Source: Hericium rajendrae
Taxonomy: Eukaryota; Basidiomycota; Agaricomycetes; Russulales; Hericiaceae
Assembly: GCA_033439255.1 (NCBI GenBank)
Contig: JAVRDV010000016.1
Location: 1 to 64,000, forward strand
Reading direction: 5' to 3'
DNA: 64,000 nucleotides
The notes beneath the pieces were generated by a model, which was given only the letters and a program-made list of their open reading frames with translations, ran no database searches and was not told the DNA's origin. Every line of letters starts with the position of its first letter. The first letter of the stretch is position 1. Below, in pieces: positions 1,077 to 27,818 of the stretch. The translations under genes and the position numbers were made by a program.

Positions 1077-1272
1077 GATGGACGAGGATGGAGGTTTGAG
1101 AGAAGAGGCAGCGCCAAGCAGCGCTTGCGGTGGCAAAGGCTGGCGATGTCGGAGTTCCATTGGAGGCTAACATGAGGCTGCACCGCCACACGGCAAAAAC
1201 GAGGCTGTGCGTATATATAGTCGATGAAGCGTGATGAGTGTACGCTGCTAGCACTAGCCAACCCAACCCAGC
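1077..1272. promoter_or_regulatory. Divergent promoter with TATA element
   Basis: These 196 bp separate the starts of two divergent genes. A TATATATA run at 1212-1219 lies about 55 bp upstream of the plus-strand ATG at 1273 and is a credible TATA box for that gene. No equivalent is obvious for the minus-strand gene. The arrangement parallels the short shared promoter between the BAH-PHD and Ulp1-like genes at 6911-7075. Confidence 0.45.
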
Positions 1273-2179
1273 ATGGCATCATCTAAGAAGATCTACCTCC
1301 GACAAGAGAACATCGAAGCCCTCAAGGCATGTTTCCCAGTCCCAGAGGTGGACTGTGAGGATGTGCCCTGCAAGTGCTACGGGTTTGTGGTGCCTACGAC
1401 GCGAACTGGGATCGCGATCACGGAGAGCAAGTGGAGCATCGATTTCCAGTCAAAACAAGTCATCTATGAAGAGCCTACGACGATCGGGACGTGCAGCCCT
1501 GCGTACTTCCACATCATTCGCTTTGTTATAAAGATACTCAATGAGTGCGCCTGGCTTCGAGTAGCTCTGCTGGCCGAAATGGACAACAAATTGGACCACG
1601 GGATTGGCAACACATTCCTTGGCGCCACCAATGCCATCTTCAAATACCAGTATGAGGTAATGACGTTGGGGCTACGACAGTTGAAAACAAAAAAAAAACA
1701 AGGGAAGATCGGCACTGTTAGATACGTGGGCTTTGGTGCAGTATTGGGGGAGCACCGCTTGTGTCAATGATAGGAAATGGCCGGATTTGGCGGCGTTGTC
1801 AAAGCTCGGTGACCCCCTGTGCTTCGGTAAGAGTGGCACTTGATTCAGAATACTGCCTCTAATGCTTCTAGCAGACGACACGAAGAATAGCCACAACTGG
1901 CTGGCGTGGGTAGGGTTTGGCCAAGCCGAGGACAAGAGCTCCGCGAAACGCTTGGGGGTTTACACGGCAGGGAAGTTCAACAGCAAGGGTTGGGTGGTGA
2001 CAGCAAAAGATCAGAAAATGCTAGAAAGATGCGGGATCAGGGTGGGGCCATGCGATGTGGGAATGCTGAAGTCGACGAAAAAATGGTCAGCTTTTGTCAT
2101 GCTAACGCTGGAAGGAGCCAGGCATCCGAGCGACAGCCTGATGGCCATAAGAATGTCTCCTATATCCTGCAACACATAA
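1273..2179 (+). CDS. Unknown protein, three exons
   Basis: The reading frame starts at ATG 1273 (Met-Ala-Ser-Ser-Lys-Lys). Splicing 1273-1656, 1742-1826 and 1872-2179 uses GT..AG borders (GTAATG..GTGCAG and GTAAGA..TTCTAG) and leaves one open frame of 258 codons. That frame retention supports the model. The product is a globular-looking, moderately charged protein with a CKCYGF segment near residue 35. It has no signal peptide or membrane segment and I do not recognise the family. The last exon may use a donor before the stop and continue into serine-rich downstream exons, so the C-terminus is uncertain. It is transcribed divergently from the PHD-like gene. Confidence 0.5.
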
Positions 2180-3939
2180 AGCTCACAGCAGGGGTGTCTT
2201 GTTCCACTTAGATTGCAAAAGTACGTTACCAGTGAGGCTCGAGGTGTGAAGTTTATGCTCACCATCTGCTTAGGAAGAGGCACAATGGGTGAGGGAATCC
2301 GAAAAGGGCAATGACGGTGCGGAGACGATGGGAAGAAAGGGCAAGGAGAAAAAAGTGTACAGCACAGATGAAGATGGTAGCGAAGAGGGCCCGCCAGTCC
2401 TGAGGCGACGACCAGAGAGCAACAAGCACACCGAGAGGAAAGAAATTAAGGCAAATATCAGGCCAAAAATGAAAAAGGTCTGCGATATGCACTGTTTCCT
2501 GTATTTTGTTTGTTTCTGACGGGATCCAGTCCAAGTCATGGATCGAGGATTCAGACGAAGAAATCCAGGTGCGTTCTTATGTCACTCGCTGAGTAGATTA
2601 GTTTGAGATATCTGAGCATTACCCCAGGCCATGGACAAGGCAGCGTTAGAGATTACCTCTGCCACGGGGAGAGCGTGGAGAACGCTGTGTTGGCGATCAC
2701 CGCTGCCACGAGAGAGGATATGGAGGAGATATTTGCGCAGGTCAGTGCCACCACTCCTGCCACTGGGAAATGCTTATCATCACCAGCAGCAAAACGAAGC
2801 CAGGATGGTTAGCCAAGATGCCAACCCAGTGCCATTAGGGAATGAAATGGAAATAGACGAAGCCGAGGCTAGGTATAGCATGCCGGTGTGTTTTTTTCAT
2901 GCTATTTTGCCTCCACACCCACTGAGAGGTGCCATGTCGCGATAGATGTCAGACGCATCCGCTGCCAAAAAACATAAGCGGGAGGTAAGCGCATGGGATA
3001 TAAATCAACTCACAGCCAGCTGATGGTTTTCATTTGGTTCAGGGATCTGACACGAAGCACTTGGGTCAGGGTGCAGAGAGCAAACGATGCCGGATGGATG
3101 TAAGCCTCAATTTCTAGGACCACCTGGTCACAAGCTGATTTTTGAGGACAAAACATAAGTCACGTCAGTCGTCACCAAGAGGTTAGTTGAATGGTTTCAC
3201 ATGGCCCGGCTGTAGCGAAGGTCTTGTCGTACGACGGGCTGTATAATAAAATTAGCTCCAAGGAAACATGACATAGTGTTGACTTTGAGATGCAGATAAC
3301 GAGAGAAGCAGCGGAGAGCAACAACAACTGACGTGGGAGGCAACCAGGGTATTGGAGTCGAAAGACAAAGACACAACCACTCACGTATGTGGCCATGATC
3401 CTGGCATGGAGATGCCGTTGGCCTCCATATATTGATTGGTTTTGTTGACGTAGATGGGGCTGCTAAGCAGCCCTCGCACGGAAGAATGGGTGGCAAGACA
3501 TACCTTGTCTCTTGCTTTGGTAGCTCCGCCGATGCCAGACAGCAGTACGCATCAATCACATGCCACAGCAACGACACGATCTGACATTGCTGGCACATGT
3601 TTCAAAGGCACGCGATCTCCCTCTCTTGGCTCAGAAGACTACCAAGCTTCTGGGTCAGAATGGCCGCCGTCGGTATCGACACCAGCAGAGGACACAAGCA
3701 CAGACACAAAAAGCCAACGTCCTACCGTTGTATGGGCACAACAACAGCGATCTGATACAATCAAAGCCCCTAGGCCGGTTGTCAAAGAAAGGTAGGTCCC
3801 TATTCTGTCTCAACCATGCAAGCGTAGTGAGTTGAACCTGTGGCACAGCGGTGCTTTCACATTTTTTGGTCCACATAAGGAGAGAACCATCTCACCCTCA
3901 GCCAGGCAAAGCATACCAAACCCAACGGCTCTGGAAACC
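2180..3939 (+). other. Fragmentary coding-like stretch, no firm gene model
   Basis: Several short open stretches separated by plausible GT..AG introns occur on the plus strand: a lysine/glutamate-rich segment at about 2280-2480, another at 2620-2810 and a Ser/Thr-rich one at 3454-3791. They look like low-complexity exons, either of the gene starting at 1273 or of the AT-hook protein downstream. The 3454-3791 segment could be spliced to the frame at 3828 by a very short (36 nt) intron. I cannot place a start codon or a full chain of exons with confidence. Confidence 0.3.
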
Positions 3940-5118
3940 ATGTCGGGGCCAGGAAGCTTCTCACGAAGGGCTTACACTCCAGTAATGGAGAAGGACGAAC
4001 TCAGGCAGCAGCCGGAGAATGCATACAGTGACAATGGTCTGACAGAGGACAAGGAAAGCCACCCCATGGATGACACAGATCACCCACAGCCCAGCCTAAG
4101 CAGTGACATGAGTGATCTTCTACTGGCGAGCCTACAAACTGACATGGACCAAGACATCGATCTCCTCCAGCCAAGCATCCCACGTCTTGGGGGAAGGGAG
4201 GAAGGAGGGCTCCCAGTGGGCAGCCCTGGTGTCTTTGCGACGCCCGGTTCAGCAGACATGGATGGCCAGGAGGATGATGCTGAGTCACTGCAGCATGGAC
4301 CTGACGATTTTATAGAAGCAGCCGTGTCCTTGCCAGTGCGTCCTCGCGGAAGGCCTCTGGGTGCGCGCAAGCCGGCGTCAACTGGTCCTGTACGAATGTC
4401 TAGGCGTCTTTGTGGTGGCCCGGCTTCAACTAGTGGTCCAAGGGCCATGGGTTTGTCAATGCTGCCCCGAACTGGCAATGCAACCAATGACGCTATGGCA
4501 CCCACCTCTGCAAGCCAGGACATCTCACCTTTTTCTCCAAACCGTGCAGGCAGCTCGCGTCAGGCATCAGGTTCAAAGCCTTCGTGTCCGAGCAGACAGG
4601 CTTTGTCAGAGCAGTGTCGGTCCCGTCGCTCTGAGGAACTGTTGGTTTACAATGTCGATGATCCACAGACGATATCGATATCATTCAACACAACTGCTGT
4701 AGAGAAGAAGACACCGGCACCCGATGCGAAGGAAAAGCACAAGACTAATGTCAACAAGAAGCTAAAAGCTGATTCCAAGAGACTGGAGCATCAGGGCTCA
4801 GTGGTAACCTCGCGGCATGCTCAGAGTAGAAAGTCGTCAGCCACAAAACTGGACCAGCCAGAGCCCTCATCATTGGTGTCGCAGCGCTCTGAAAGAAAGT
4901 CATCTGCCCGCTCCCAAGAGTGGGCCACCAGAGAAGAGGCTGAGAAGGGTTCACAAGATCGCAGGGAAAGCAAGAGCTTTTGGGAGAACGTCATAGACAG
5001 CTTGGATGCCTTGGGCAAGAAATGCGACGAGGCAGAAGTGCGATTTCTATGTTCTGCGTCAACAAAGCACACGCTGACATCGGCTGATTATAGAAAGACA
5101 AGACGGAAGCAGGTGTAG
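3940..5118 (+). CDS. Ser-rich, disordered AT-hook-like protein
   Basis: The frame is open from before 3840. The first ATG is at 3940 (Met-Ser-Gly-Pro-Gly) and gives 392 residues, but upstream exons may be joined to it. The protein is rich in Ser, Pro, Arg and acidic residues and looks disordered. Near residue 135 it carries VRPRGRPLGARK, a match to the AT-hook core (Gly-Arg-Pro flanked by basic residues), a minor-groove binder of AT-rich DNA in other proteins. The C-terminal 80 residues are highly charged and may be helical (FWENVIDSLDALGKKCDE). It lies downstream of, and co-directional with, the gene at 1273. A chromatin-associated role is inferred from the AT-hook alone. Confidence 0.5.
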   Translation: MSGPGSFSRRAYTPVMEKDELRQQPENAYSDNGLTEDKESHPMDDTDHPQPSLSSDMSDLLLASLQTDMDQDIDLLQPSIPRLGGREEGGLPVGSPGVFATPGSADMDGQEDDAESLQHGPDDFIEAAVSLPVRPRGRPLGARKPASTGPVRMSRRLCGGPASTSGPRAMGLSMLPRTGNATNDAMAPTSASQDISPFSPNRAGSSRQASGSKPSCPSRQALSEQCRSRRSEELLVYNVDDPQTISISFNTTAVEKKTPAPDAKEKHKTNVNKKLKADSKRLEHQGSVVTSRHAQSRKSSATKLDQPEPSSLVSQRSERKSSARSQEWATREEAEKGSQDRRESKSFWENVIDSLDALGKKCDEAEVRFLCSASTKHTLTSADYRKTRRKQV

Positions 5119-5480
5119 AACAGACAGCCATTGTGTTGACAGCATTTTCTTGCAAGCTGGATGAGCATTGGAAGAGATCAGAGAAGGTTGGAAGAGAAAA
5201 GATCTTAAACAAGGCAAAGATGGACCCAAAAGCAACAGTGGGTGTCCTCTTGCTCGCATTTTAATTTGATGGTGTATAATTTTTGTTATCACTTTATAGA
5301 TGAGAGGGAAGCTAGGATGTATCTCCATGTGTGATTTTCTGATAGCCCACCAGCCGGTGCTGGAGAAAGAAGGTTTCTATTTTGTCACATGGGACATCTT
5401 CGTGCAGGTCGTCATTCCAAGAGCAGAAGATGGAGTAGAAGAGGAAGCAGAAGATGGAGTAGAAGATGCAGCAAAAGATA
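5119..5480. other. Intergenic, short GAAGATGGAGTA repeats
   Basis: No gene is seen. The end of this stretch (about 5425-5475) holds imperfect repeats of GAAGATGGAGTAGAAGA. It ends where identity to copy B of the large duplication begins (GGGCAAAAAAACATTC, 5481). Confidence 0.5.
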
Positions 5481-5495
5481 GGGCAAAAAAACATT

Positions 5496-6910
5496 CTATA
5501 TGATTCTCGTGCATTGTTGGCAGCGATAGTATGTATGTGATGTGGTTTTCAGCATGTCGCGTATGTGGTTCTCGACATCGGTGGCATGGTGGTGGAAATG
5601 GAGTGCATGGCTGAACTGGTTAGCCAAAGACTGTCTCCAAAACTCATCCAGGTTCCCTGTGTCTGCACGCGCTCGAAGCTCGACTACGAAGCACTCGTAG
5701 CTCAGTGGTACGGACCCGTTTGGCGTGCGTTGAATGGGCCACCGGAGGGCAGATGCCAGGCTATCTAGCTCCATGGATAGATGCGTATCTTCTGCGCCTT
5801 TGAGAGATTCAAAGTCATAGTCGAGCGGTTGACTTTGTTTGAGAGATTCCATGTCGTAGTCTAGTGGGTGACGCTGTGGCGTGGCCTGAGATGGGTCACC
5901 AACAGGAAGCTGGGTATCCAGTGGAAGTGGCGCCAAACACCGGACATGTTGCCAGGTTTGACAAGAAGGGCAGTGGCGCGTGGTGTGCTGCTCTGGATTC
6001 CAGCGTCGGTAGAGACGACACTTTTCGTGGCACATTTTCACCAAATCAGAGTCCTTCTGCAAAATCTGTGGTCAATGTTCCAAGCAAGGGAAACGAGTAC
6101 ATTGTGGAGAGAGGACGGACCAGCCACAGGGAACGTGAAAGGTGGGCATGGATCCTGCGGTAGTAGACGTCTTCCTTGCTCATGGGAAGGAGGTTGACCT
6201 TATGCTCATCAAAAGTGACCATGTCGGCAGGGCCTAGCGACGGGGGTGAATTTCCACCCGTAGAGATTTGCAGCGGACGTACCGACAATCATCGACATCT
6301 CAAGAATTTGCTTGTCAACGCTAAGAACCTGCTCGTTCTTCGCACCTATTTTGGATATCATGGTCTCACAGAGCTTTAGAGGAACAAGAGCTTTCTTGCT
6401 CCGCTTTGAACTGGCCATGTTGTCTAGGGCACAGTGGGCAGAACAATGCGACCATGCCTTCAGGTCTGCCTTGGAATAGTACCAGCAAACAGTGATCCAG
6501 GACTAGAGGGTGGGTTATTGAAAAAATGAATGACACAGAGAGTCGATATATACTTTTTCTTGCTCATGTCCAGGAGCCACGTGAAACTGAGTGATTCGCG
6601 CGCGCCACCACTGCGGCCATGGCAGGTTTTGACCTGGCGACACCCCATGAGGGAATAACAAAATCCTGAAAATGTTGTGTCAACACGGCCACGCAGGAAG
6701 GTGGTTGAAAACCCACTCGTCCCCCACTGTGAACAGGTGGTCATGGCCAGGATTTGACATGCCTGTTGCTATGCAAAGCCAACGGTTTCTGTGAGTCCGG
6801 GGAGAAGAAGAGAGCACACTCTCACCCATGATGCATTGCGGCGACAGAAGGGTAGCGAGGTGCTGGGGACTAGGATCTGCTGCCGTAGCACTAGACGTAG
6901 ATGCAGACAT
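5496..6910 (-). CDS. BAH-PHD protein, copy A
   Basis: A minus-strand, intron-rich gene starts at ATG 6910 (Met-Ser-Ala-Ser-Thr) and stops at 5496. Exons read from the N-terminus give VGDEWVF, then NLPWPQWWRARITQFHVAP, then WITVCWYYSKADLKAW. That order of Gly-Asp-x-Val, Trp-x-Ala-Arg-Ile and Trp-x-Tyr-Tyr blocks is the pattern of a BAH (bromo-adjacent homology) domain. The last exon (about 6050-5496) carries C-x3-C ... HCPSCQTWQHVRCL and ends with YRCQQC, a PHD-like zinc finger. BAH and PHD modules bind nucleosomes or histone tails in known proteins, so a chromatin-reader role is inferred. Copy B (26240-27653) keeps the same structure. It is divergent from the Ulp1-like gene across a promoter of about 165 bp. 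Confidence 0.6.
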
Positions 6911-7075
6911 GGCAGAAAGCGAAGAGGCAGGGCAAGACCAGCGTCGGATAGGCTTGAGCAGGACTGATGATAAATTGGGTTGTGAGGGGGCGTGATTCTG
7001 ATAGCCGACGAAATTTCATATTGACGGAGTGAAACATCGCTTATTCCACAGAAGATACACCTTTGGCGCAACATC
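6911..7075. promoter_or_regulatory. Divergent promoter, BAH-PHD / Ulp1-like (A)
   Basis: These 165 bp separate the two divergent start codons and must hold both promoters or a shared one. No clear TATA box is seen. The same interval in copy B (27654-27818) is nearly identical. Co-regulation of the two genes is inferred from this arrangement. Confidence 0.45.
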
Positions 7076-10000
7076 ATGGCATCGGCAAAGGAAGCATGGG
7101 CGAAACGGAGGGCAACATATGCAAGGTTGGCAGCGTCAGTACAAGCAGAGGTGGCAGCACAAGTCGAAGCGGCAGCCCACGTGGAAGAAGCAGTCACCCC
7201 AGCTTTAGTGAGCACTTGGTGTCTGACAAGGATGCTACGACGAGCTTACACACTTGTAGCTCTCCTCCTCACCTTCATCTGGTGATGAAGGCCCGCCTTT
7301 GTCCTCGTCTTCTGTGCTAGAAGACACTGATCATTCTGAATTGGACAGAAGTGCAGAACAAAGAATTGTGAGGGAGTACTGTCAGAAAAGGATGTACAGC
7401 ACTGTGGAGCTTATATCCGTCTAGGCATCTAGTAACCAAGGTCCTCTATGGGAGCTGCCAGAACAGAAAAGACGCTTGGACTTGTACAGGCGGGCAAAAA
7501 AATCAGTTGTGAGTACTGCCTCTGCAAAAAAAAATGTGTTTCTGCTACATTCTTCTAGTTTTCCCGAGCACTGCCGAGAGATCAAGACCAGCCTTCGCCG
7601 CTGTCTCTACCAGAAAGAAATACGGATAACAGGAAACATCGAGTGAATAGTCACGAGGTCACAAGGATATCGTTCTGTTGGCTTATGTTCTTCTAGTCCT
7701 CCTCCTCGTCCACATCATCATCAAAGTCGGGAAAAAAGACAGGCGGTGGGGATGACGATGACTACGAGGAAATAGAAGATCTTGCACTGGACAATGCAGA
7801 AACCTCTCCGAGGAGATCCCCTTCTCCAGAGCTCAACCCTTGGAACGAGCTGCAGCGCTTGGAGCATGCATGTGGGTAGTATTTTCGTAACTTGTTTGTC
7901 TGTGCTGCCACTTGGATGAAAAGCACTGAGACTCTTTTTCTAGGGCGCTACCTCTCCACGTTCAGCTTGTGGCACCCAGCATGGGAGGGGCGCAGGTCCC
8001 TTTTGCCACCGGAATGGGTGGATCACAGCATTCTGGAACTTTTCCTGCTGCAGTACTGGTTCAAGGACAGCAGCCGCCGCCTGATGCGGTATATTAGCCA
8101 AAGTTTAGCAGGAGCGTGGGACGTCGACATGGCTGCCGAAATGATTGCAACAGTTCCCCGTTTTCGTGAAATGTATTTTCTGCCCTGCACGACAGGTCCA
8201 GATGGGAAGTATCCTCCCTGCCCCTTCACTCCTGTCTGTTTCTTCATTCTGCGTGGAGGCCATTTTTTCTCCGTCATTTTTGACGCAGAAAATAGCGTGG
8301 TACACGTCCTCGGACGCACAAGTAAACTGGACACAAGAGACAGCTGGCGCAGCTGGAATGGGCCTCGGTACTACCAGCATATTTGTCGCATCCACGGCTG
8401 GCCTATGGGAGAAAAATCTTTGGTCTACATTGACCAGAATGTCGCCGTGCAAGAAGTGACCTGGGTTGGCGATGGGATCAACTGTGGACCCATGACGGCC
8501 ATGCTGTCGCACTTCATGTCCTACGGCCTCAACTACAAAGAGGACGGGCAGACTCTGGAGCATCCTCCTCTTCCTTGTGGGCATGCAGCCCGTCATAGCA
8601 TGTACACCGAGCTGATTGCACTGGCCAACATATGCTGTGCCCGGTATTCTGAGTACAGACAGAATCCACCCGTTGAGTGGCAAGCATTGGAAGTGACCTG
8701 GGCACCTCGGAGACAGACCTCTGATGACTACCCTGTTCTTGACAGGGCATTGGTGCAGGAGATCCGACACAGCAGCATGTCACGAGACAACGACATTTTG
8801 ATTGCTCTCGATGACTGTAAAAAAACATGCAAAACCTGTCGACCAGCTCATGGTCAAACCTTCTACGAGGACCAGGGCCCTACGAGGACTCAGACCAAAG
8901 ACCAGCTGCGTAGTCGGGTGCGCGGGGAGGCAGCCGAGCAGATAGGCCTGGGAGCAGATGACCAGGACCAAAGAGAGGAGAGCGACGGCAGCGAAGTCGC
9001 AGCAGGAGCACAGATACCTCGACGCATATTTGGTCGGAAAGCAAGAGGCAAACCTCCATCAGGACAGGTAGATCTCGAGCGTTTTGCCCGTCCAAAGTTG
9101 CCTGTGGAAATCCCACCTCGCCCACACCCTTTATGGAGGCAAAGGAATGATGACTACGACGACTACTGGAGTGGACCCACTCGTGAAGACTTTCCACCCA
9201 ACTGGATGGAAAACCAGATGCGAGACTTGAATGCGTACTACACCAATGCGCTGACAATGGTGTCTTATGAGACAAGCCCGTGGGCCAGGTTCACCGACTA
9301 TGGCTACCGACTGATGAATCGTTTCCATCAGATGTTCTACGAAGGCAGCCCGACCCACGTACTAGATCATGTTCTCCCTGTTGGGGTGCCACCTGACTAC
9401 AATCCTGGATTCTTTTGGCTGCATCGCCATGACCAACCCGGCGAGATCAACACAACCAGAGCTGGCATTCTGAAGGGCTACCAGCAGAGCATGGTGGAGG
9501 ACGTGCATCTCAGCAAACTCCTTCGCTACGCAGCAAAAGAGTCTGAACGAGATGTCCTGGTCCGCGGTGTGCTTGCCAATGGAAAATACGTCCGCGTCAA
9601 CCTGGAAGCAGATGGGATGACAGGCATGGAGGCCAACGGAACAGAGATTTCCGTGGACATTGATAGCATAGTCTGGGTGACTCGTGAGATCAAAGTCAAG
9701 ACATCGATTGGAGTAGCAACCACGCCGACTGTGTCCCGCAAGCCTCTGATCAGCAAAAACAACCACGTATACGTTGATATCTTACTGCCTCGCAAAGACG
9801 AAGACGTGGGACAGGGCAAACATCGAAGCTGGGACGAGGTCAAAACGCCACTGAGCGGAATCCCGCACACCTTGTTTGCTTCGGAGGGTACCTTGAATAT
9901 CTATATCTTCTTTCCTCGTATGATGCATCGCAGTGCCATCTCTGGTTACCGGCAATCGATCATACCCTTGGAGATACAGTCTTGTTTCTGGAGAGAGGTC

Positions 10001-12294
10001 CTCCTGCCTGCCCTCAAAGTAGCATCGAACAGGAGCACAGATGCATATCTCGATGTCACGCTGGAAGAGAGGCAGTATCGGTCTGCACAGGCTGGGAAGC
10101 GCACGGGAAACTTGAACAAAGCAAAACTGGTCTCTGTGAGTCCTAGCATGCTAGAAGTCATGCAGATGCACATGAAGCACATCTTGAACAACTCGCATAA
10201 CCCTGTTCTTGAGCGGTACAAGAGCTGCTTCTTTGTGCTTGAGGCAAAGGGGTCAAGCTCAGAACAGTAGAGCTGGATGGGGATGCAAGTGAGTTGTGGG
10301 ATACGTTTGAGGCTGAATTCTTTCAGCTGGATGTCGACTACATGCTGGACCGAGACAATGGAGAGTTCATAGTAGATCTTGGATTTGGCTTTCATCCGGT
10401 GCACGGCCGTCCCTTGGTGGGGCTCTGGAGATTGGATGCTTTGGAGGCTTCGATGGGCGCAGGAGGATACAAGAAAGGACATCTTCACACTGCTGACACC
10501 TTTGCAAATTACGGATCTATGCAGGCGGAGATGGGTGGTGAGCGATCAGCTCACACACAGGTGTTGTTTAGATCAGCATACAATCTGGAATATGAGACGC
10601 GTCGGGCAAAAGACAACATTCCTACTTATGCGGAGGACGCAGATGCTTACCACCTCAACGATACGTTTCTGGGTGAATGCTTCAAGGCAAACAAGATATT
10701 TACTGGCGAGGCTAAAAACCGTTCATATGGGGTGCGAGATGAGTATCGGCTCAGTGGGTTGGCGGCGAAGGAAGTGCTGGAGAACTTTAAGGAGTTGGTG
10801 AGGTGGCTGCTTCTGCAATGAAATGCACGTGCTGACTGTCTCATTGTTGCAGGCGACTCGATTCGTTAAATCAAAGCCTATCCTATGGATTCCGTCAAAA
10901 ACGTGGTTCGGATATCTTGCTGCACGGCTGGAAGCGCTAAAAATTACCCAGGTGGACATACATGGGATCGATGCTCCCAACGCGGGGACCATCTCTGGCG
11001 TGGTGAACTTTTTAATACGCTGCCTTTCTTCCACCCCCACCAAGGTCGCGTCATTTGTAACTGATTCTATGGCACGGCTGCATTTCAAGGCGACCAAGCA
11101 TCGCTTCGGAATGATGTTTTTGCATGACTTGAAACTTGAAAATGACAACCCCCTCGATGCGCTGTCGGACGAAGATGCAAACGATGTTCGGACCCTTCTC
11201 AAGACAAGGAAAAAGGCGCCATTGCTTCAAAAAGGGCCAGCAAACACCACTCCGACAGAAGACTATCCCATTGGCCAGCATCCAAGCTGGGCCATGCTGT
11301 CCAAAACAGTCCAGAGCCAGCCTGCTCTGATGATGCGCCCGCCGATGTACGAAGTACTATGGGAGTCATACGCTACCGCCGCACGTCTGTTTATAGAATT
11401 TAGTCAAGACACATGGCTGGTTCTGAACGAGGCATATCGCACCAAAACGCAGCAACCAAGCTCCGAGCCCTTGTCGTTGGAGGAGGCCATGGAGAAATGG
11501 CATGTGGAGACAGTTCTGGAGGAGATCAACGCAGTAGAGTCTCTCTGCATAGGAACTGGCCTAACAGGAGCTCCCCCAGCACAGCAAGTGACACCTACGT
11601 TTCGAGAGCGACGATCTCTGTTTTTCCCTGCTGTGAACACCCAGTTTCGGAAAACATCACATTGGTTTATTCTTGCTTGCCATGCAGGGTACATCCAGAG
11701 CTACTGGGAGACAGTGAGGATGTTGGATGGCAGTGATGGCAGCGTGGAGCAGCTTGATCTGGAGCTGGGCATCCTTTTTGACCACGTGCAGTGCCTGCCA
11801 GTGGCGACACTGGATCAAAAGTCACGGAATGGTACTATCTGGACCACAAAATCTGGGAAGATTCAAATGGTAATGAATCCACGCTTTTACCGTATCCAGA
11901 GTGTAGGAAACAATGGAGCAATCCAGAGGCAGCCAAGAAGGAGAGGCGCACCAGGAATGGAGCCAAAAGGTGCATTGTTGAAGAAGCTGCTGGACGTCGA
12001 AATTGGTCAGAGGAAAGTGCAGAGATGCAGCGGCGATTGGGACGGCAGCAGGCAAGACAAGCACGTCAGAAAAAATCCGTGCAGTCCAGGAACAAGAGAA
12101 AACCTCCAAAACAGAGTGAGAAGAAGGAAGATACAAGCAGCGAAGAGAGGAGTGAGTCATCTGAACCAGAGGATGAAGTTGGGCAAGACAGTGAGGATAG
12201 AGACACCGAAGCAGAGGAGGACGATGAGGACATGCCCAGCAACCAAAATTTTACTGATGAAGAAGAGGAGGAGGAGGAGGAGGAGGAAGAGTAG
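7076..12294 (+). pseudogene. Large Ulp1/C48-like protease-domain protein, copy A, frame disrupted
   Basis: The gene starts at ATG 7076 (Met-Ala-Ser-Ala-Lys-Glu) with an alanine-rich helix and Ser/Asp-rich exons separated by short introns. A long exon (about 7946-10797) follows, then a GTGAGG..TTGCAG intron (10798-10852) and a last exon ending in a poly-Glu tail. The long exon holds GGHFFSVIFD and, about 70 residues later, GDGINCGPMTA. These are the His, Asp and Cys blocks of a Ulp1/SENP-type (C48) cysteine protease. The remaining ~1,300 residues match nothing I know. Relative to copy B, this copy has a G run one base shorter near 10250 and is one base shorter near 11997, each shifting the frame. 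It also differs by an in-frame change just after the catalytic Cys block (8503-8510). These may be true decay or homopolymer assembly errors. Confidence 0.6.
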
Positions 12295-12555
12295 CTACCT
12301 TGTATTATTTGGTGCAAGTGGTGTAATTCACCCTTGAAAAAAGCCCGGTGGTGGAGACGAGTGCGAAAGCACATTTGGTGATTAGGCGTCGAGAAGGGGA
12401 CTACTGGCTGCAGTCCTTGTCATGATACATTTGCCACCAGACATGGACGTACAGAGAGCTCAAGACAGGCTTGTCCAAGAGGTCTGCAAGTCATATGTCG
12501 TCATTTCTCAGCGTTGGTATTTGTTACGACATAGAAATAATGCTAGGTACTTGCC
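12295..12555. other. Gap between convergent genes (A)
   Basis: This is the 3' flank of the Ulp1-like gene and of the minus-strand ORF that faces it. Nothing beyond presumed 3' UTRs is seen. Confidence 0.4.
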
Positions 12556-12954
12556 TTAAGTTGAATTCAGAAGCAAGGGTTGGCTGTCGACATACGGAGC
12601 AGGAGCGAGTGGGGTGGAGGTCAGAACAGGAGTTGGCTTGATAGTCACCATGTTCTCAGGGGTGGAGGGAGGAGGCATTGGTCTGAGAGGGAGGGTAAGG
12701 TGCTGACCATTCGAGAGGTTGATCAACTCAGTGAGGCAGCGATGGAGGTGGCGAAACTCCTTACTCTGGGCATTGAGAACCTGGTTCTTGGCCGAAGCGT
12801 AGATGCCTTCCTTCAGCGATTCAGACAATCTGTGGCTGTGCTGCCTCATTTTTGATGGGATATACCTCGCGTCTAGGGCGCAGGGTATAGGCCTTGCCAG
12901 CTGGATAGAAATACCCACCACTGAGACAGAAGTGCTTACAATGTAAGGCATCAT
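12556..12954 (-). CDS. Small Pro-rich unknown ORF, copy A
   Basis: A minus-strand frame of 132 codons ends at 12556. Its middle is amphipathic and helix-like (SESLKEGIYASAKNQVLNAQ) and its C-terminus is Pro-rich. The true start is unclear; an internal Met (Met-Arg-Gln-His-Ser-His) or an upstream exon with a GTAAGC donor near 12939 are both possible. Copy B carries one extra A in the run matching position ~12754, which splits the frame there, so only copy A has it open. No family is recognised. It converges on the Ulp1-like gene and lies tail-away from the small plus-strand gene at 13026. Confidence 0.35.
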   Translation of the reverse strand: MMPYIVSTSVSVVGISIQLARPIPCALDARYIPSKMRQHSHRLSESLKEGIYASAKNQVLNAQSKEFRHLHRCLTELINLSNGQHLTLPLRPMPPPSTPENMVTIKPTPVLTSTPLAPAPYVDSQPLLLNST

Positions 12955-13025
12955 TGTCCTCAGAGTTGTTAGTTTGGCTGACCCACATAAGGGATTGTGA
13001 CTTTGAGAATGTTTCAGCAGAAAAG

Positions 13026-13537
13026 ATGATGCAAAGAGCGTCGCAACCTGTCAAGGCTGTGAAAAAAAGGGAGAATAGCGGGAGAATAAGTGCTTCTCAG
13101 CCAGTGCGTGTCTGTGTCTTGCTTTTGCATCCTCTAACTCTCGAAAGAAGGTGCAAAAGAGCAAAAATCAGGATGTAAATGATCAAATACCTATGCCGAC
13201 AGTGCATGGGTCACAGCGGATGACGTCTGCCTTGATCGAATCCAGCAAAGCTCATGGCAACATGCCGGCAACGGTCGTTGCACCCATCGTTTCGGACGCA
13301 GACATGCTCCGGCTGGCTGCAGTGCCTGATGATCTCAGACTTGCCGTCAAGGAGAGCCTACAGGGTGTGCTTTGCCGCCTTGGAGAGGACCATTGGTTTA
13401 CTGGTGATGTTGCACGACAGCTATGGGAGTCATTGGGAAACTTGAAGGACACAGAATTGGCACTAGTGGCAATGCAGAAGGGAGCGCAGAAGGGACTGGA
13501 TGAGTGTTTCGATGAGCAAATGGACAGCGAATTGTAG
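13026..13537 (+). CDS. Small unknown protein (~155 aa), copy A
   Basis: ATG at 13026, exon 1 to 13103, a 44-nt intron (GTGCGT..GAAAG) and exon 2 from 13148 to the stop at 13537 give about 155 residues. The N-terminus is basic (KAVKKREN). The C-terminal half looks like a folded helical domain (LRLAVKESLQGVLCRLGEDH, DVARQLWESLGNLKDTELAL). No family is recognised. The same frame, intron and length are kept in copy B (33775-34286), and the A/B differences leave the frame intact, which supports real coding. It lies downstream of the Ulp1-like gene on the same strand. Confidence 0.55.
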
Positions 13538-14920
13538 GCTGTGCAAGACAGTAGATGATCTTGCTTGAAAGGGCCATTTATTGATTCCTCTATTCCTCTA
13601 CTATTGCTGAGTATGCTGCGCAGCAATTGTACATGTTTGGTTGTAGTCTCTTTCGCACGTCTCTTCCTGTTTGCTCAAAAAGTCTCACATGTGGTTGTAC
13701 ACTCTGCTGCGCAGTCTGTAGACTACTCCATCTTCCGAGAAGTGTCGTTGTGGATTGAACGTCATCCCGCACTCGGATATGACATATATTTTCCACTACT
13801 GAATATGCTTATTAATGCATGCATTGTGTGCCCGCATCGACTTTAAAATCACGGTAAGTCAGCAGTGCATTCTCTTCCATGACCATTATGCTGTCACACT
13901 TCCTACTATACAACCAGCGCGTGTTCCCATCGCCTGCTGGTGACGTCCGACCAGGCTGTGCGTGACACATAGCGCACGATCGTCGAGGGGCGCAGTGTGC
14001 TCTGAGCGGGCATCCTCTCCAAGAGGTCGTGTGAAGGGCGTCGTCGTGTTGTTTTTCTGTGCTGATTGGTTCGCTATGTGGGGCTGTAGGATCTCTGTAT
14101 TTCGAGACTGATTGCAGGTACCCATAACCTATCCTTGCATATAAGCGAAGCTCACATCTGCACGCAGGCAAGCATTCTGCCCGCCATCGTGATGAATGCA
14201 TAGAATCAGTGCCGATCTTGCATATGGCATGCACGTTATCATGCAGTGCAAGATCTGGCACTGCGTCCCGCATACCGCATCCTCGCTCGCGTTCATTGTT
14301 GACGAGACGAACGTGATAATGCCGTCGACGTGGTCCCGCAGCGCGACAATTCGTTCAGAGCATGACGGACGTCTTCACGCTTGACGCTTCGATCTCGCGG
14401 CTGTACCACATCAGCGCGTCCAGACACAAGATTCACTCTGTGTTGAGTACGGAGTACCTCGCCTTCCCACGCACGGGAAGGCGCAGAAGGATTAGTCACT
14501 GCGCCCGTTTATGCCCCTGGTTCGCTATGGACGAGGTGCGTGTATTTGTATCTGTATGCCTTTGAGACCTGAGTAGCCGCAGTACTATGCCGTGCATGGT
14601 GCTCCTGGTGTCGTGCGCGCGCTCAAGGTGGAACGACCGCGAGACGGCGAGCCATGTTGCAGAGGACTATTTGAGGATGCATTGTGTGTCTGACCATCTC
14701 CTTTTTCTCTCGTGCTTCTGACCGAGACGCACATTATGGTATAAATGCCCAGTTTGTTTCATACGGGCGATCGTGGAGGTCAAGAGTAAGTACAAGATCA
14801 CGATTTCTAAGATGACTACGATCGAAGGGGTGTTAGAAAATTGGAGAAACTTTTAAATTGGCCCCCCCCTAGAATTCTATATATTTTCGTACCAAATCGT
14901 GTAGATGTTGCTTCTGTAAT
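13538..14920. other. Gene-free stretch of the duplicated block (A)
   Basis: I see no supported gene. A TATAAAT at 14740-14746 sits upstream of nothing that looks coding and could be a promoter for a non-coding transcript or for the repeat array that follows. By hand, about 18 of 22 differences from copy B here are C/T or G/A changes at CpG dinucleotides. Confidence 0.5.
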
Positions 14921-15199
14921 ACGTTTCGTCCAAATGCGACTGAATATGCACATGAACCCTGCTCTTCCAAAACAGAATATGAATATCGACTCTAACCTTG
15001 ACCAAGACTGGCAGAGCGCCAGCTCTGTCACATCTTGTATGTTTTGTGCGTTGTTAGGTGAAAACATGGGCACTGCACATACAACTGCCCCTTCACACCA
15101 TGCACATACGAATGGTTACCTCGTGTGATGACAGCATCATATGTATGAAGGCTGGTAAAAAGAGAGACCTATTAGAGTTGGTCTGGATGATGAGCACTG

Positions 15200-16340
15200 C
15201 ATGAGCATGCATTCAATTCTGCCCCTGACATTGACTGTTCAAAGTGTGTACCCCCTTGAACAAGACCTTTCTCAAAGAATTTGAATATTGCTGATATGAC
15301 TCTGAGACTTTCCATGTCTGATCTAACATACGCAAAGCACATGTACGGTAAGTTTGAGTGCAATCGGACCACACATAAATGCGCGGCCAAAGCCACCTCC
15401 TTGAGGAGGTAGCAGAGGGCAATCAAAGTGAGAACATGTCATATTGTCTGGAAACTCTGTGAGGATGTATATTGAATGTAGATAAACACTATACATTGAC
15501 AAGTTATACAGAAAAAGTAATATCTGAATTATTTGAAGCTAATCGAAGTATGTATCCTCTGAAACAAGATGCAGCTCAAATAATTTGAATATTGTGGTTA
15601 TGACTTTGAAACTTTCCATGCCTCATCTAACATAGAAAAGCACATACCAAATAAGTTTGAGGATGATCGGACCACACACAAATACGTGGCAAAAGTCAGT
15701 CATGTTCTTGAGAAGGTAATAGAGGGCAGACAATTTGAAAATGTATGGTATGACCATGAAGCTTTGTGAGTATGTATATTGAATGTACACAAACATGATT
15801 CATTCATCAGTTATGCAGCAGAGAGAATATCTGAATTATTTGAAGCTAATCAACATATGTATCCCCTAAAAAAAGATGTAGCTCAAATAATTTGAATATT
15901 GCAGCTATGATTCTGAAACTTTTCACATCTCATCTAACAAATGCAAAGCACATATACTATAAGTTTGAGTGCGATCGAACCACACACAAATGTGCAGCAA
16001 AAGTTGCCTCCTCGAAGAGATGGTAGAGGGCAAACAATTTGAAAATATGTTGTATGATCATGAAACTTTGTGAGCATGTATATTTAATGTACATGAATAT
16101 GATTCATTTATCAGTTATGCAACAGAGAGAATATCTGAATTATTTGAAGCCAATCAAAGTATGTATCTCCTAAAACAAGATGCAGCTCAAATAATTTGAA
16201 TGTTGCAGCTATGATTCTGAAACTTTGCATGTACAGCACTGCATATACCATGCACATACCATGCATATTTGAGCAAGATTGGACCTTAGAATAATGAGTA
16301 GTAGAGGTCTTCTCCTGGAGGAGGTCAATTTTAGACAAAT
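15200..16340. repeat. ~300-bp tandem repeats, copy A (about 3.5 units)
   Basis: The phrase ATCTGAATTATTTGAAG recurs at about 15524, 15831 and 16133, giving a period of 302-307 bp. Each unit also holds AAGCACAT..AAGTTTGAG..GATCGGACCACACA and a variant of the palindrome ACCTCCTCGAGGAGGT. Units are diverged from one another. Copy B has more units (38740-39460 and 44100-45560). Confidence 0.85.
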
Positions 16341-16640
16341 GTGCTCCAAACAATTCAGGCATTGCTCTTGGCAGGTCTATATTGCTGCAGCATCATAATA
16401 CAGCATGTATGAACAATATGTATGCACCCAAATGACCCCAACATTGCTGCCTGAATTGTTTGGGCCATCTTCTCCTCCTCTCCCCCCTACAACAATGATT
16501 GCCTTGCCGAGAAAGAACGGGACCGCCGTTTTTGCTAAAATTTCACATACAAGGGCTTCATATATATAGCTACCCACATACAAAATTTCAGGGCAAAATT
16601 CCATGACAACAGTTGTTGAGATGCAGGAATGTGGGTACCA

Positions 16641-16687: not shown

Positions 16688-17165
16688 ACCTGTGTGACAT
16701 GATATGTAAGCCCAACTAGCCTCACCATCTTACGTGTTGATGGAGGCTAATCGGCCTTGGATCTGTCTTAATCGCGTACTAAGCTGAAGACTACGCAGAG
16801 CGACCTCTTGTACGCTGCGTCCTGCTGCTCCTCGGAGGACGTCGGGGTTGCTCGGCCCGTGTTCCTCGTCATCAGGCACGGATCGCGGCATCGCTCGGCA
16901 ACGCTCGGCAACGTCTCCCGTCCCTTCCTCCCATCATCCGCCCCCCGCCGGCGCTTATTACGGGCGGCTGGTGCCCGCCGCTGTCCCGCCCATCAAGCGC
17001 CCGCCGTCGGCGCCGTCGCCAACGACGACGGCGATATCTCCCCTTCCCCGTACCGTACGTAGATGAATGTATATGTATTCCGAACCGCTTTCGCGCGTAG
17101 ATCACGATTCTGAATTCGGTTTCTCGCTCCGCTCACTGGATAGGCGGATATCTCATGATCTTTGT
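16688..17165. repeat. KDZ left terminal inverted repeat
   Basis: 478 bp, reverse complement of 25524-26001. The one difference I found is near 17113 (T here, C in the complement of the right copy). It holds a GC-rich core (about 16900-17040) and ends CATGATCTTTGT. Confidence 0.95.
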
Positions 17166-17758
17166 ACCCTCATCACCCTGGAGAAATGACACGAAGTTTG
17201 TGCTCTTTGCACCTAATAATAGAGCTTATACTCCTAGACAGTTGTTATGCACAATGGTACTTCAGTTTATGTCCGATTCTCGAGCAAATGGCATTGGTAT
17301 TCAGGAGCAAACAGCTAAACTAGTGTAGTGCCAACAGAGGCTTCGAAATAGAGATAAGTCGATGTCCTAATGCCGCGCACATGGTGACAGACGCGCCCGG
17401 GGATGAAACATTTGACGAAGGGCATCTGTTGGGTTATAAGCTCTGTAGGAGAGTGGAGGACAGCATGGCAAAGGGCGGCAAACATGATGAAGGGCGGCGG
17501 CAAATGCGGAGAAAGAGTGGAAGATATGGCGAAATGGTAAAATGTGAATACGAAGGATGGGAGTTTCAAGTAACAGGAAGGTACGAGGGACAAGGAGGTA
17601 TGGGGCATGGCAGACAGGAGGTAGGGAGTAGGGGCGCAACGAACGATGGCTGCACATGACAGAGGACAGTCAGTATTTATCGATCGCACAGAGTAACGTC
17701 TAGAAACGTACCGCGACCGTTTACCATGGTGATCACCTTGCCACGATCCCAAACGCCC
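17166..17758. other. KDZ subterminal non-coding sequence
   Basis: The region between the left TIR and the stop of the last accessory gene. I see no supported gene; open frames here lack splice sites or protein-like composition. Confidence 0.5.
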
Positions 17759-19247
17759 TTACTCAGTGTCATGCCCGTCGCTCGAAGACGAGGACACGTC
17801 GGAGTCCGAGATGATTGCTCTACTCTTCGGTCCTTTCATTCCTTTTCGAGAGCGGTCTTTGCCCTTTCGAGTCGTCCCTTTGTCCTTGCGCGTGGCTCTC
17901 GGCTTCACCTGTCCAGACTCGACTTTCTCCTTGTATGCGAGCTTCCGTGCCTTCCAGTCCTCATTGGAAAGGACCTCCCACCGGCATTCCCGGTCGTGCA
18001 AGGCCTTCAACATGCGCGAGAGGCGGAAACTGGAGTTGATGTCGGTGATGGGACCTACTTTTGCCTCGGGCCATCCAACGAGCTCTACACCAAGCTCGAC
18101 GACGAGTTTATCGTAGTGTACATACTGCATAGACTTGGGCCAAAGTTCCTCCGGCATTCCTTTCTGACTGAGCGCCTCGTCTAGAGTGGGATATCAGAGT
18201 AACAAACAGAAGGCATACATGGAATACTCACGAAGGCCCTTTGTGATCAACTCTCGGATCGCGCCTTGGGAATTCTCCCGGTTGTGATGCTCGAGATTGT
18301 GGATAGTACCTTCCAGAAGCAAGATATGATGCGGCATGTCGACAGCGTGTCAGTTGCTTCTGATCAATGTCACGATGACTGTGAGAACTTACCGGCCAAC
18401 CCGGACGTGCAGAAGTTCTCGATCTTCAATGCCAGTTCCTCGGGAGTCTGAGCGAAGAGAGATCCGCATGCCTCAGTAACTTTCGGTGATGCAACAATGT
18501 GAGTTTCATATGGACTCCTTGTCTTTCCCTTCAGAAATAAGACTAAGTACTCTGAGCCCGTGCGTTGACCAAGGCTTATGAGCTGCGGCCGAGTAAAAGT
18601 CAATGTGGGTCCATGTATGCCATTGTAGTGGCTTCCATTTGACGTAGTACGTACCTCAGGCTCGAGCTTCGCGAGCGTCCGATTGAAATCCCTCGTAATA
18701 ACCCCCGCTGACACCATGCGAGATTGCTCGGCTTCCTTCTCCTGTCGATCTTGCTCAAGCTCATCCATGAGGGCCTTCTGCTGCTCTTCAGGTAAGTTGC
18801 GCCAGTCTATCTGTGCAACATGGTGGGAGAGGTTCGGTAAGGTCTCTCTTCCATCACTATTGCCGCTGCCCTCCGCCGCTAATAAATTCAATTAGTTGGC
18901 ATGAGCGGAGATAGCATGCTGTCATACCGAGCTTCTTTGCTTCATGATGGATGACAGCATTATATAGAGTTGGAGCGCGCCGCGTTATCAGAGCACTAGC
19001 ACCGGCGTAGACTTGCGTAGCGATGTCTTTCTTGTCTCTACGGGAAGGTAATTAAGTAGATGGAAATGAGAATCGAGCGATAGAATAACTTGTCATGTTC
19101 AGCGGCTATTTTTTCTACAACGTCGCTCACGGCATGACGACCGGCGTGGACATCATGAAATAAAGCTTCTTTGCGGACGTGTGTTGCCTGCCTCTGCTGC
19201 CGAGCCTTCGCGGCTTTTTTCAGGTCGATAAAGCGTTCGGGGGGCAT
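17759..19247 (-). CDS. KDZ accessory gene 2, unknown function
   Basis: A multi-exon minus-strand gene starts at ATG 19247 (Met-Pro-Pro-Glu-Arg-Phe) and stops at 17759. Exons are separated by 50-60 nt introns with GTACGT, GTAAGT or GTATGA donors. Readable blocks include IDWRNLPEEQQKALMDELEQ, LISLGQRTGSEYLVLFLKG and MPEELWPKSMQYVHYDKL. The C-terminus is Lys/Arg-rich and ends in a Ser/Asp-rich tail with a nuclear-localisation-like stretch (RKDKGTTRKGKDRSRKG). No catalytic motif is recognised. It follows the other accessory gene on the same strand, inside the TIRs. A role as DNA-binding cofactor of the transposase or as self-regulator is only a guess from its basic tail. Confidence 0.55.
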
Positions 19248-19427
19248 TTTAGCATGGACAGGGAGGGGGAAAAAGAGTCCTAAGCCGGGTGAGTGCGGAG
19301 GTTGCCCGCTGCACTTCAGACTCAGAGGTACTAAACAAATGCACGTGATGAATAAGCTGCCCCTTGGCAGCACACTTGGAGATCTCATTACAACTACGAA
19401 CTACTGGTTCAAAGTGTCATGCAATAT

Positions 19428-21197
19428 CTAATCCTCAGGGCCAATGTCGAGGGAAGCCAGAATATACTCCCAGTCACCATTCTCCTCTTGCGACGCCACT
19501 TGTAAGACCTCGCGCAGGTCATCAGACATATCGCGCTCAATGATCGCGCGAAGTTCCCAAGCTAGTTGGCGTGCCAATCCAGCCTCCTGAAATAAACGCA
19601 CCCAATGCTGTGGTTCAAAGTGCAATGCATCGTGTACGCCCCGACAGGCCTCAAGGCTGATTCCCCGGTCCGACAAAAATTGCGCGACGGCCGGGGCAAA
19701 TCCAAGCTCCTCGAGGCCACTTTGACTTGGCGGCAGGCATTCGTATGCCGGCGGAGGTGGGAAGTCCGCCGCGCGACTGCGTTGATGACTAGAGGAGGGT
19801 TCGGGAATGGAGGATCGTGATGACGCAGCTGGCGCGGCCTCGGATCCTGCTGCAATGAGTAGTAATAAGGGACATAAGCAGCATGCCACATACCAGAACG
19901 GACTTGATGTTGCAGTTGCGCAGGCTCAGCAGTAGCAAATGAGGTAGACGAAGCATGAGTCTAGATGGACGGCACATCAGATGGTGCGCCAGCCTATTTC
20001 ATGATAAAAAGGACTTACTGTGTTCGAAGGCAATGCCGCGAGACGGATGGATGATGTCAGTGAGCTCTCTTGTCGACGTCCGGTGCGTATAGCGTCAATA
20101 TCGTCATCTGCGAAAGGCTGGTCTGGGTAAAGAGATAGGGACGGTGACACCTGTCCCATGATCGTGAGTGCGTAGTCCTCTGAGTTGAAAGTGAGACATA
20201 CCGAAGGAGCTGCAGAGCGTGTCGCGCTCTCGAGTGCAGCAGAACCTCCATCTTCAACAGGACCACGGTCTTGCTGCACTGTCTCAACATTTGTCGCTCC
20301 CGATGCTGGCGCCGGTGTTCTTTGGGCAGTTGTGCGAGCCCGAGCCGGTGATGGAATTGCACCTGCACATTGCTTAAGTAGGCTTAGAAGTAATAGGAAA
20401 ACAAAACATACCTTGTTGCTGCTGAACAGCTGTAGACTCCGGCACCAGTGGTATCGGAGCATCTCTATCGTCCGCGAGTGCTGTTCCGGAAGCAGGCCCG
20501 AAGTTTGGAAATGAACCTTGTGATCGTCGAAGTTCTAGAGGAGGGGGAAGAAATGCCGGGATAGATGGGATGCGTATATTATTGGCCATTGCGAGATGGG
20601 GCTCGACGATGCGTCTTGTAGTTGGCGAAAGCAGATATCCACGCCCCGGATCGATAGCGTGAACCCTTGCAGGAAATCCATAGACGTGAGGACCAGCCAG
20701 CTTATCTTGAATGATCTTCTGGAGTTTTGCGACCGTGTGTCGTAGGGCGGGATACTGAAAAAACTGTCGGGAAAGAACTGGTTGGACTTCGACTTGACTG
20801 GGGTCAAAGGGCTGTGATTGATTCCATTCTGGAGAGACCACGAAGCTGATTACCATTGCATCAGCCAGGCGATCCATCCCCGCGACCTGTTGATACGATC
20901 TCAGTAGATAGTTGACAGGAGATGCGGGCAAAATGGACTCACGACATCTCTGAGATCGCCGAGGGATTCTTGAAAAGCGAGTTCCCGATCTCTCTTCTTC
21001 AAAACGAAGTGCCGATGCAGCTCATTTTCGAGCTGCGCATTGTCGTCCTTGTGGACATCTAACCGTCGACACAGTCTTTCTCGTGCAATGTCCTGCCGGA
21101 GAGGGGGTGGTTGGGTGTTGCTCGCAAACTCAGCCAGGGCTTGCGGGCTGTACGATGCCCTGTTGATAGTCGAACGGAGGCCCTGAGAAGAATACAT
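19428..21197 (-). CDS. KDZ accessory gene 1, unknown function
   Basis: A minus-strand gene starts at ATG 21197 (Met-Tyr-Ser-Ser-Gln-Gly) and stops at 19428, with several short introns (acceptors such as TTTGCAG/CTAG-type, donors GTATGT). The N-terminal exon is charged and helical (RLCRRLDVHKDDNAQLENEL). The second exon carries an ordered region (GMDRLADAMVISFVVSPEWN; QFFQYPALRHTVAKLQKIIQ). A long Ala/Pro/Ser-rich linker follows. The C-terminus has GLEELGFAPAVAQFLSDRGI followed by HWVRLFQEAGLARQLAWELR, a helical layout that recalls SAM-like domains, though I cannot assign it. It lies between the transposase gene and the second accessory gene. Confidence 0.5.
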
Positions 21198-21655
21198 ATC
21201 TCGAATATAGAGTAGAAGCAACGGCGAGACGGATGGACGGCGGAGACAGGAATTCGATGAGCTACAAGACGATAGCACTATCAGCGGTTAGGCGCTCAGT
21301 ACGAGCAATGCATCGACGCGCGACTACGAAACTCCAGGTCATTTGTGCGTTTCAGTGTCCTTCTTGCACGTTTTATGAATGCCGCTCGAGCACTATTAGA
21401 ATAAACTTCTTTGAAAACTGCCAGGATGAACTGAATCCATTCGAATAATGATTTATGATAGCGAACATCTATCGCAAAGGCCTGCATTTTAAGTATCGAG
21501 TTAACTTAGTTGCATGGTGCACCGAGCCATGCCGCGACTCAAATCTTGTACAGACGTTCTTGCTCTCGACTTGTCCTATGGGCCTCTGCCCCTCAGAAAA
21601 AAATCGTACTATGAGACTGTACTAGATGATTGAATATTGTATGAGAGAGTACTAA

Positions 21656-25252: not shown

Positions 25253-25523
25253 GGTGGCGGTAGTGTGCTTGTGGTTGTAGGCGCGGGATTGGCGGCGTCC
25301 AGAGTTCTCATCAGGCGCGTCCGTTGATCAACGCGCCAAAGTCACGTGTATCGCGGCGAACACGTCGCCCTCATCTCCTGGACCTTCCGCCCCGCCGACA
25401 GCAGTCTACCGGGCTGTCCGTGCCATGCATCTTAACGTATCCCTGCATATATCGCTGTTGTTTACTCCGAGTAACTCGAAATACAATGCCTATATATTAC
25501 TGAGATATATCAGTCATGTAACC
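25253..25523 (-). promoter_or_regulatory. KDZ transposase upstream region
   Basis: These 271 bp separate the transposase start from the right TIR and presumably hold its promoter. AT-rich motifs (GCATATATCG near 25445, CTATATATTA near 25491) could serve as TATA elements on the minus strand; none is clearly preferred. Confidence 0.35.
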
Positions 25524-26224: not shown

Positions 26225-26239
26225 GGGCAAAAAAACATT

Positions 26240-27653: not shown

Positions 27654-27818
27654 GGCAGAAAGCGAAGAGGCAGGGCAAGACCAGCGTCGGATAGGCTTGA
27701 GCAGGACTGATGATAAATTGGGTTGTGAGGGGGCGTGATTCTGATAGCCGACGAAATTTCATATTGACGGAGTGAAACATCGCTTATTCCACAGAAGATA
27801 CACCTTTGGCGCAACATC
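27654..27818. promoter_or_regulatory. Divergent promoter, BAH-PHD / Ulp1-like (B)
   Basis: 165 bp between the divergent start codons, nearly identical to 6911-7075. Conservation of this interval between the copies fits a shared promoter. Confidence 0.45.

Follow-up and report, generated by a model that had tools for sequence, protein, structure and literature searches.

A candidate giant polar element of subtelomeres, with one near base-exact end at many junctions, in the fungus Hericium rajendrae

Introduction

The locus considered here comes closest in behaviour, among described systems, to the Terminons, giant Penelope-like elements of bdelloid rotifers, which reach up to 40 kb, carry accessory genes and are attached by their 3′ ends at chromosome ends, most copies being 5′-truncated by short telomeric repeats and arranged in tandem or interspersed arrays (PMC6431247). 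Retroelements of chromosome ends also include the FoTeRs, which have truncated copies and show purifying selection on the intact ones (PMC12857005), the MoTeRs, telomeric retrotransposons of fungi without long terminal repeats (non-LTR) (PMC8381367), and the telomeric retrotransposons HeT-A/TART (PMC5537684). Our subject is a module found twice, as copies A and B, in bases 1–64,000 (hereafter, the window) of contig C16 (JAVRDV010000016.1; 1,007,072 bases) in the assembly of the basidiomycete Hericium rajendrae (GCA_033439255.1; 46.8 Mb in 19 contigs). It holds a gene for a giant protein with Ulp1-like motifs and, in divergent orientation, a gene of PHD type; an original prediction made from the window sequence had taken the pair for a candidate mobile or selfish system. 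We tentatively read the module as part of a giant polar mobile element of subtelomeres, joined to chromosomal DNA by a fixed right terminus and having its left side towards the telomere. Its copies end alike on the right but at different junctions and are oriented nearly always the same way; many are cut short towards the telomere, and several have coding sequence conserved by purifying selection.

In size class, accessory genes, end attachment and telomere-side truncation such an element would resemble the Terminons, and in end location, truncated copies and purifying selection the telomeric non-LTR elements named above. Two other groups show likenesses: HELPO1 and HELPO2 in A/T preference, in cargo and in that no inverted ends are seen at the right end (PMC4289320), and the subtelomeric RecQ helicase families in being multi-copy at chromosome ends (PMC7473861).

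Results

A genome search with the last 300 bases of the element recovered 18 right ends at identities of 94–100%. Sixteen of them stop at the same base, copy A one base and one copy on contig C19 four bases earlier, all 18 ending within 4 bases of ...GAATGTGGGTACCAA. In 17 of the 18 the sequence could be read across the end, running ...GGAATGTGGGTACCAA and then into different sequence, with one base changed there in a single copy; the junction counts cover 17 copies and leave out the one at C2:4480847. Compared on the same strand over up to 1.5 kb each, three pairs of flanks each belong to one repeat but have their joins offset by 8, 146 and 933 bases, and a further similarity of 67 bp between flanks lies far from the junctions, so that the 17 readable flanks represent 17 different junctions. 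The right border proposed in the original prediction (16640 in A, 45886 in B) is a true terminus, common to the copies of this census.

The base following the element is T at 14 of the 17 junctions, against 26% T in the flanks (chance ~2e-6). Among the fetched loci a related unoccupied site was found for nine junctions, and the join falls between A and T (A/T) at six of these, between A and G at two (copy A and the C19 copy) and between C and A at one (copy B); among the A/T sites that of the C10 copy is weaker, since it is formed by the distal end of an inverted repeat. Eight of the nine unoccupied sites match the end of the element by 1–3 bases (three by AA, one by CAA and four by a single A). 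The A before the join may reflect target choice or microhomology, two possibilities that these data do not separate because the element itself ends in AA.

These sites bear most directly on another explanation, that of a very large non-autonomous Helitron-like rolling-circle element with 3′ CCAA that goes in between A and T, makes no target duplication, is mobilised in trans by the Helitrons of the genome and is biased towards subtelomeres, an explanation which we regard as possible but on balance unlikely. It would explain the exact 3′ end, the A/T context at six of nine unoccupied sites and the T after 14 of 17 right ends, and the genome has 67 Helitron_like_N matches, several in frames of more than 2,000 aa; furthermore, Pleurotus has Helitrons with A–T insertion, no target duplication, the variant 3′ end CTTG and cargo (PMC4289320), and oyster Helentrons carry satellite-like arrays (PMC7492417). 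The element, however, ends in CCAA and not CTRR (nor the CTRR/CTTG of HELPO1/HELPO2), it has no clear hairpin, the folding of the right-end region being unremarkable (z −1.15, 0.58 and 0.96), and none of the 67 Rep matches falls in its known copies, in a search that included the contigs of the telomere-side part. Nor would one expect of a Helitron the one-way orientation described below, another difference from HELPO1/HELPO2, and no left half of the target turned up next to any of the four copies tested.

Thirteen of the 18 right ends lie on contigs longer than 1 Mb and no further than ~151 kb from a contig end, in a zone that makes up at most 12% of the genome (chance 7e-9), and in 13 of these 13 copies the right end faces inward (two-sided chance 2e-4). 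Contig ends are here equated with telomere sides, an assumption vulnerable to errors of assembly. The polarity count leaves out two copies on C19 (191,581 bases), a contig of less certain telomere side, although (TTGGG)4 near the right end of that contig fits the same polarity, and three inside C2, two of them at 2.50–2.51 Mb and the third at 4.48 Mb, with 388 kb between it and the nearer contig end. A second small repeat family, a piece of which forms the spacer between A and B, has a common right edge near CAATGGATTG at four places with the same polarity in all four, and polarity of this kind may be a general feature of the genome.

Location near contig ends could also be expected of a passive subtelomeric repeat, that is, an old segment of the host, without mobility of its own, which break-induced replication and exchange between chromosome ends would have spread. 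To this explanation belong the 15 of 18 right ends within ~151 kb of a contig end, the census identities of 94–100%, the mosaic neighbours and one telomere healing scar, and mushrooms are known to have subtelomeric gene families, the RecQ helicases of Agaricus among them (PMC7473861). Homology-driven spread should, however, lead to shared inner flanks or to variable stops, whereas here a single near base-exact end recurs at 17 junctions with a strong preference for T, and we consider the passive origin improbable; from the RecQ families the element is set apart by this inner end and by the lack of a helicase match in the scanned frames. An integrated linear plasmid or mini-chromosome, fused by one physical end to broken chromosome ends, would fit the fixed single end, the one-way orientation, the large unit and the genes on both strands, but no DNA polymerase or plasmid gene was found among the scanned frames of the known part, and this origin appears very improbable.

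On the telomere side six of the 18 copies run on through window base 1, seven break off, each at a point of its own, four end with their contig (those on C4, C12, C7 and C15) and one is unread. The left break of the C8 copy falls immediately on (CCCAA)3, oriented as a former telomere would be; C3 begins with CAACCCAACCCAA at the break, a weaker case because the element itself has six of these bases; the C2 left break has a single CCCAA, and the other four breaks show no telomere-like repeats. For the C9 copy a search of the whole genome did not recover the telomere-side half of the acceptor beside it, nor did this half appear for B, C8 and C2 left within 26, 5.1 and 5.7 kb of sequence, respectively, and any of these four may have lost it later.

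TTGGG is a plausible candidate for an unusual fungal telomere repeat. Contig C17 ends in ~26 TTGGG units, and TTGGG/CCCAA tracts in telomere orientation are present in L045 (C17 end), L046 (C19 end), L028 1–13 (C3 start) and L025 5126–5140; TTGGG tracts are found within C1 as well, and 10 kb into C4, and no stretch of four exact TTAGGG units exists anywhere in the assembly. The sequence after the TTGGG tract at the C17 end (L045) and the first bases of C12 (L014 1–39) are presumably nanopore adapter or barcode that stayed in the assembly. A TTGGG telomere is reported for a lacewing (PMC12564400) and a TTGGA telomere for a basidiomycete (PMC10100673); no paper on a TTGGG telomere repeat in basidiomycetes was found in the open-licence literature.

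The window self-comparison bears out the near-identical duplication of the original prediction, 5481–14922 equalling 26225–35671 at 99.2% identity over 9,449 columns (9.4 kb). In the same order 14921–15591 pairs with 38618–39289 and 15271–16640 with 44515–45885 (96%), and copy A is without two inner stretches of B, 35672–38617 and roughly 39290–44514. A DNA search with 25980–27300 yielded seven copies, in all of which the match begins at the same base, 26225, and 26225/5481 was considered as a true left border until the flanks were read: the 100 bases to the left are identical in six of the seven copies, including A, B alone differing, and window 1–5480 is present in the same six at 99–100%. 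The proposed left border at 5481 is therefore the break of copy B, and the implied unit was too small. From window base 1 to the right end the six long copies measure 16.6 kb (A) up to 22.2 kb, and the repeated unit is at least 20 kb; because a ~300-bp piece akin to window 798–1095 (79–82%) recurs 4.6–7.5 kb further left in five of the six, it is probably at least 25 kb. Diverged pieces (67–91%) of the window region at ~12.4–15.0 kb are found on C10, C8, C11, C13, C12, C16 and C5.

The check suggested with the original prediction, for dispersed copies that keep the gene pair and common outer borders, was answered in part: within this genome seven copies carry both the giant and the PHD-type genes, and the dispersed copies share the right border; the proposed left border finds no support. 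The large exon of the giant gene is open in six copies and the last exon in five of them, a single stop interrupting it in the C10 copy. The six large exons differ at 20 non-synonymous and 18 synonymous variable codons, compared with ~30 and 8 expected without selection (p = 5e-4), and the ratio of non-synonymous to synonymous differences (pN/pS) is 0.19–0.34 in 12 of 15 pairs, two pairs having no non-synonymous difference and one no difference at all. Such figures indicate that the large-exon copies, or the lineage that produced them, have been kept functional under purifying selection. With 18 right ends, 17 different junctions and six open large exons of low pN/pS, the suggestion that this is a mobile or selfish element whose gene set is unfamiliar gains support; in the open-licence literature, searched for subtelomeric/Ulp1 and BAH/Ulp1 transposons in fungi and basidiomycetes, no element with this gene set was found.

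The coordinates of the features are collected in Table 1; all introns were inferred from sequence and the gene models built by hand.

Table 1. Features of the window (positions are window positions unless another locus is named; strand "." means none)
Feature	Position	Strand	Remarks
Copy A, known part of element	1..16640	+	Runs off contig start at left; right end 16640; inner deletion relative to B
Copy B	26225..45886	+	Left broken off at 26225; right end intact at 45886; later insertions
Right terminus CCAA	45883..45886	+	Usually T next in other copies; preceded by 9-bp inverted repeat 45816–45824 / 45874–45882
Giant gene, copy B	27819..33042	+	1,632 aa in 7 exons; Ulp1-like motifs at the N terminus, CxxC, a long stretch without assignment, acidic tail
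Giant gene, copy A	7076..12294	+	Two frame breaks
Space between divergent start codons	6911..7075	.	165 bp
PHD-type gene, copy A (claimed BAH-PHD)	5496..6910	-	5 exons, 399 aa, hand-built splice model
PHD-type gene, copy B	26240..27653	-	One-base insertion in exon 1, frame-shifted
Small frame	12556..13050	-	164 aa stop to stop, possibly spliced
Small frame	13079..13537	+	152 aa stop to stop
392-aa frame	3940..5118	+	AT-hook-like RPRGRP; DNA in 6 copies
206-aa frame	144..764	-	Cys-rich finger-like pattern; DNA in 6 copies
304-bp tandem array, copy A	15239..16232	+	
304-bp tandem array, copy B	44054..45471	+	
KDZ DNA transposon between A and B	16688..26001	-	PF18758 E 7e-43; not part of element
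Spacer between A and B, with 16641–16687	26011..26224	+	Piece of second repeat family
Second-family places	L018 4433–4694; L015 7617–7870; C5:24010–24131; window spacer		

In copy B the giant gene has an open frame over its whole length. For copy A two introns of 38 and 35 bp had been assumed, and the open frame of B together with a comparison of A, B and the C4 copy turned both into frame breaks, B reading through the first and B and C4 agreeing against A at the second; copy B was for this reason taken for the model. Its product accords with the protein of more than 1,600 residues claimed at first, and the divergent start codons are indeed 165 bp apart. As to the claimed Ulp1/C48-like core, His and Cys are kept (GGHFF and GINCG), and the landmarks W-V/L-x-x-x-I-L, then H-F, then x-C-G stand in the order typical of Ulp1/SENP proteases, but the usual Asp and Gln places differ and there is no Pfam match to Ulp1 either in the window protein or in its relatives on C1. 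Aligned by hhalign with a SENP1 domain, the N-terminal part matched at the first landmark with a probability of 1.2%. Because of this value and the altered Asp and Gln places, "Ulp1-like" is a suggestion at the level of motifs, and protease activity of the window protein is doubtful. The C1 relative (C1:505592–511148, loci L037–L039) lies in a chromosome interior and is 27–37% identical in parts; it has the N-terminal part in tandem, one copy with QQNGYDCG and the other without the catalytic Cys.

Other comparisons of the giant protein gave little. Pfam had no match in the large exon and sub-threshold matches only in the last, NCBIfam nothing meaningful for five proteins, and the sequences of the PDB no match, a profile yielding one chance match (E 0.58). 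No relatives were confirmed in IMG/VR with the window protein and alignment A1, or in prokaryote genomes with alignment A2. Against the DUF6589 protein of the window hhalign gave 0.3% and against the frame of the window KDZ transposon 0.1%; one such transposon adjoins the element, but the giant protein has no KDZ match. An AlphaFold model of the large exon alone (pLDDT 31) was set aside. The chromatin reader described as BAH-PHD exists as a minus-strand gene of PHD type (399 aa in A), in which, however, the PHD match stays below the Pfam cut-off (E 0.12 for the exon, 0.61 for the protein) and BAH has no Pfam match in exon or protein. Two small reading frames and a 304-bp array are present, as had been predicted.

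The KDZ insert of 9.3 kb takes up most of the interval between A and B; it has ~480-bp inverted ends 99.8% identical and a 9-bp target duplication, GGCGCTGAC, and looks young. KDZ transposons make target duplications of 8–9 bp; from the 9-bp duplication the insert had been considered Mutator-like, an assignment overturned by the KDZ domain match. Within copy B, 35672–38617 (2.9 kb) has the ends CATCTGA...TCAGATG, a likely 2-bp duplication AC and a GC-rich middle, and it is absent from the A, C4, C2, C12, C10 and C9 copies, all read across that point; in view of this absence, the inverted ends and the likely duplication, it is an insertion in B. What looks like a small DNA transposon is the 690-bp insertion at 42599–43288, with ends CTGTACCATTTAAA...TTTAAATGGTACAG and a TA duplication, absent from most other copies and shared by two of them (L017, L023). 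Next to the right end of B, 47598–53785 contains LTR-type gag/pol frames with zinc knuckle, aspartic protease, reverse transcriptase (RT), RNase H and integrase zinc domain, some below Pfam cut-offs, and further on, at 58527–63949, there are a DUF6589 protein (E 4e-54) and a minus-strand DEAD/Helicase_C fragment, possibly a subtelomeric helicase relic.

Discussion

If the element is indeed mobile and polar, its right end would be joined to chromosome ends that are eroded or broken, through pairing of the terminal CAA with 1–3 matching acceptor bases and possibly also with an overhang of TTGGG type. Erosion and telomere healing would shorten the older copies, new copies or other repeats would be joined outside them, and the succession of erosion, healing and further additions would lead to mosaic chromosome ends. 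The giant and PHD-type proteins would be functions of the element, and one may guess at end processing and chromatin targeting. The escape from silencing through SUMO removal that the original prediction put forward would be a speculative function of the pair.

The behaviour of such an element has parallels among the mobile elements of chromosome ends; its gene set, and possibly its mechanism, has none. Terminons carry a Penelope-like RT and a hammerhead, neither of which turned up in the element as far as it is known (150 of 294 RVT_1 candidates were scored; no hammerhead ribozyme was seen at the Rfam gathering cut-off over the window or at E≤5 over 43900–46100); the right end here, in contrast to theirs, stands on non-telomeric DNA, and gene set and host differ. 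Instead of the reverse-complement telomere stretch of the Terminon 3′ end there is only CCAA, compatible with a TTGGG telomere, and the 5′ truncation by telomeric repeats is clear in one of seven truncated copies (C8), with a weaker one at the C3 contig start. FoTeR, MoTeR and HeT-A/TART are RT elements, FoTeRs being joined at telomere repeats, whereas the present element has introns and genes on both strands and no RT was seen. In its known part no RT, Helitron Rep or other transposase was found.

Several observations weigh against addition to chromosome ends by a polar element. No RVT_1 match lies inside the known copies among the 150 of 294 candidates scored, a list that also misses a weak RT frame at window position 50678, and the giant gene retains sense-strand introns in the copies read, which speaks against an RNA intermediate. 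The A/T context at six of nine acceptor sites suits a Helitron-like cut at least as well, matches of a single base at the joins prove little, and the right junctions read are without telomere repeats. The 151-kb zone was set after the data were seen; three copies are interior to C2, the one at 4.48 Mb having opposite polarity; the known part ends short of the telomere-side end, where there may be a second flank; and TTGGG as the host telomere is based on one contig end and short tracts. It would be a still bolder proposal that the element represents a new class, giant and gene-rich, which extends or caps fungal chromosome ends one way via a single terminus, without RT or a described transposase and with the conserved giant protein, made up of a Ulp1-like head and ~1,300 unassigned residues, as part of the joining machinery, and we hold this proposal to be unlikely as it stands.

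The upkeep of chromosome ends is usually the task of telomerase and rarely of retroelements, and an element that adds itself one way without a recognised copying enzyme in its known part would, if true, constitute a new route of subtelomere building. The near base-exact end and the conserved copies make the idea of end attachment testable, and the many junctions of known polarity provide material for the study of how eroded chromosome ends are rescued in fungi.

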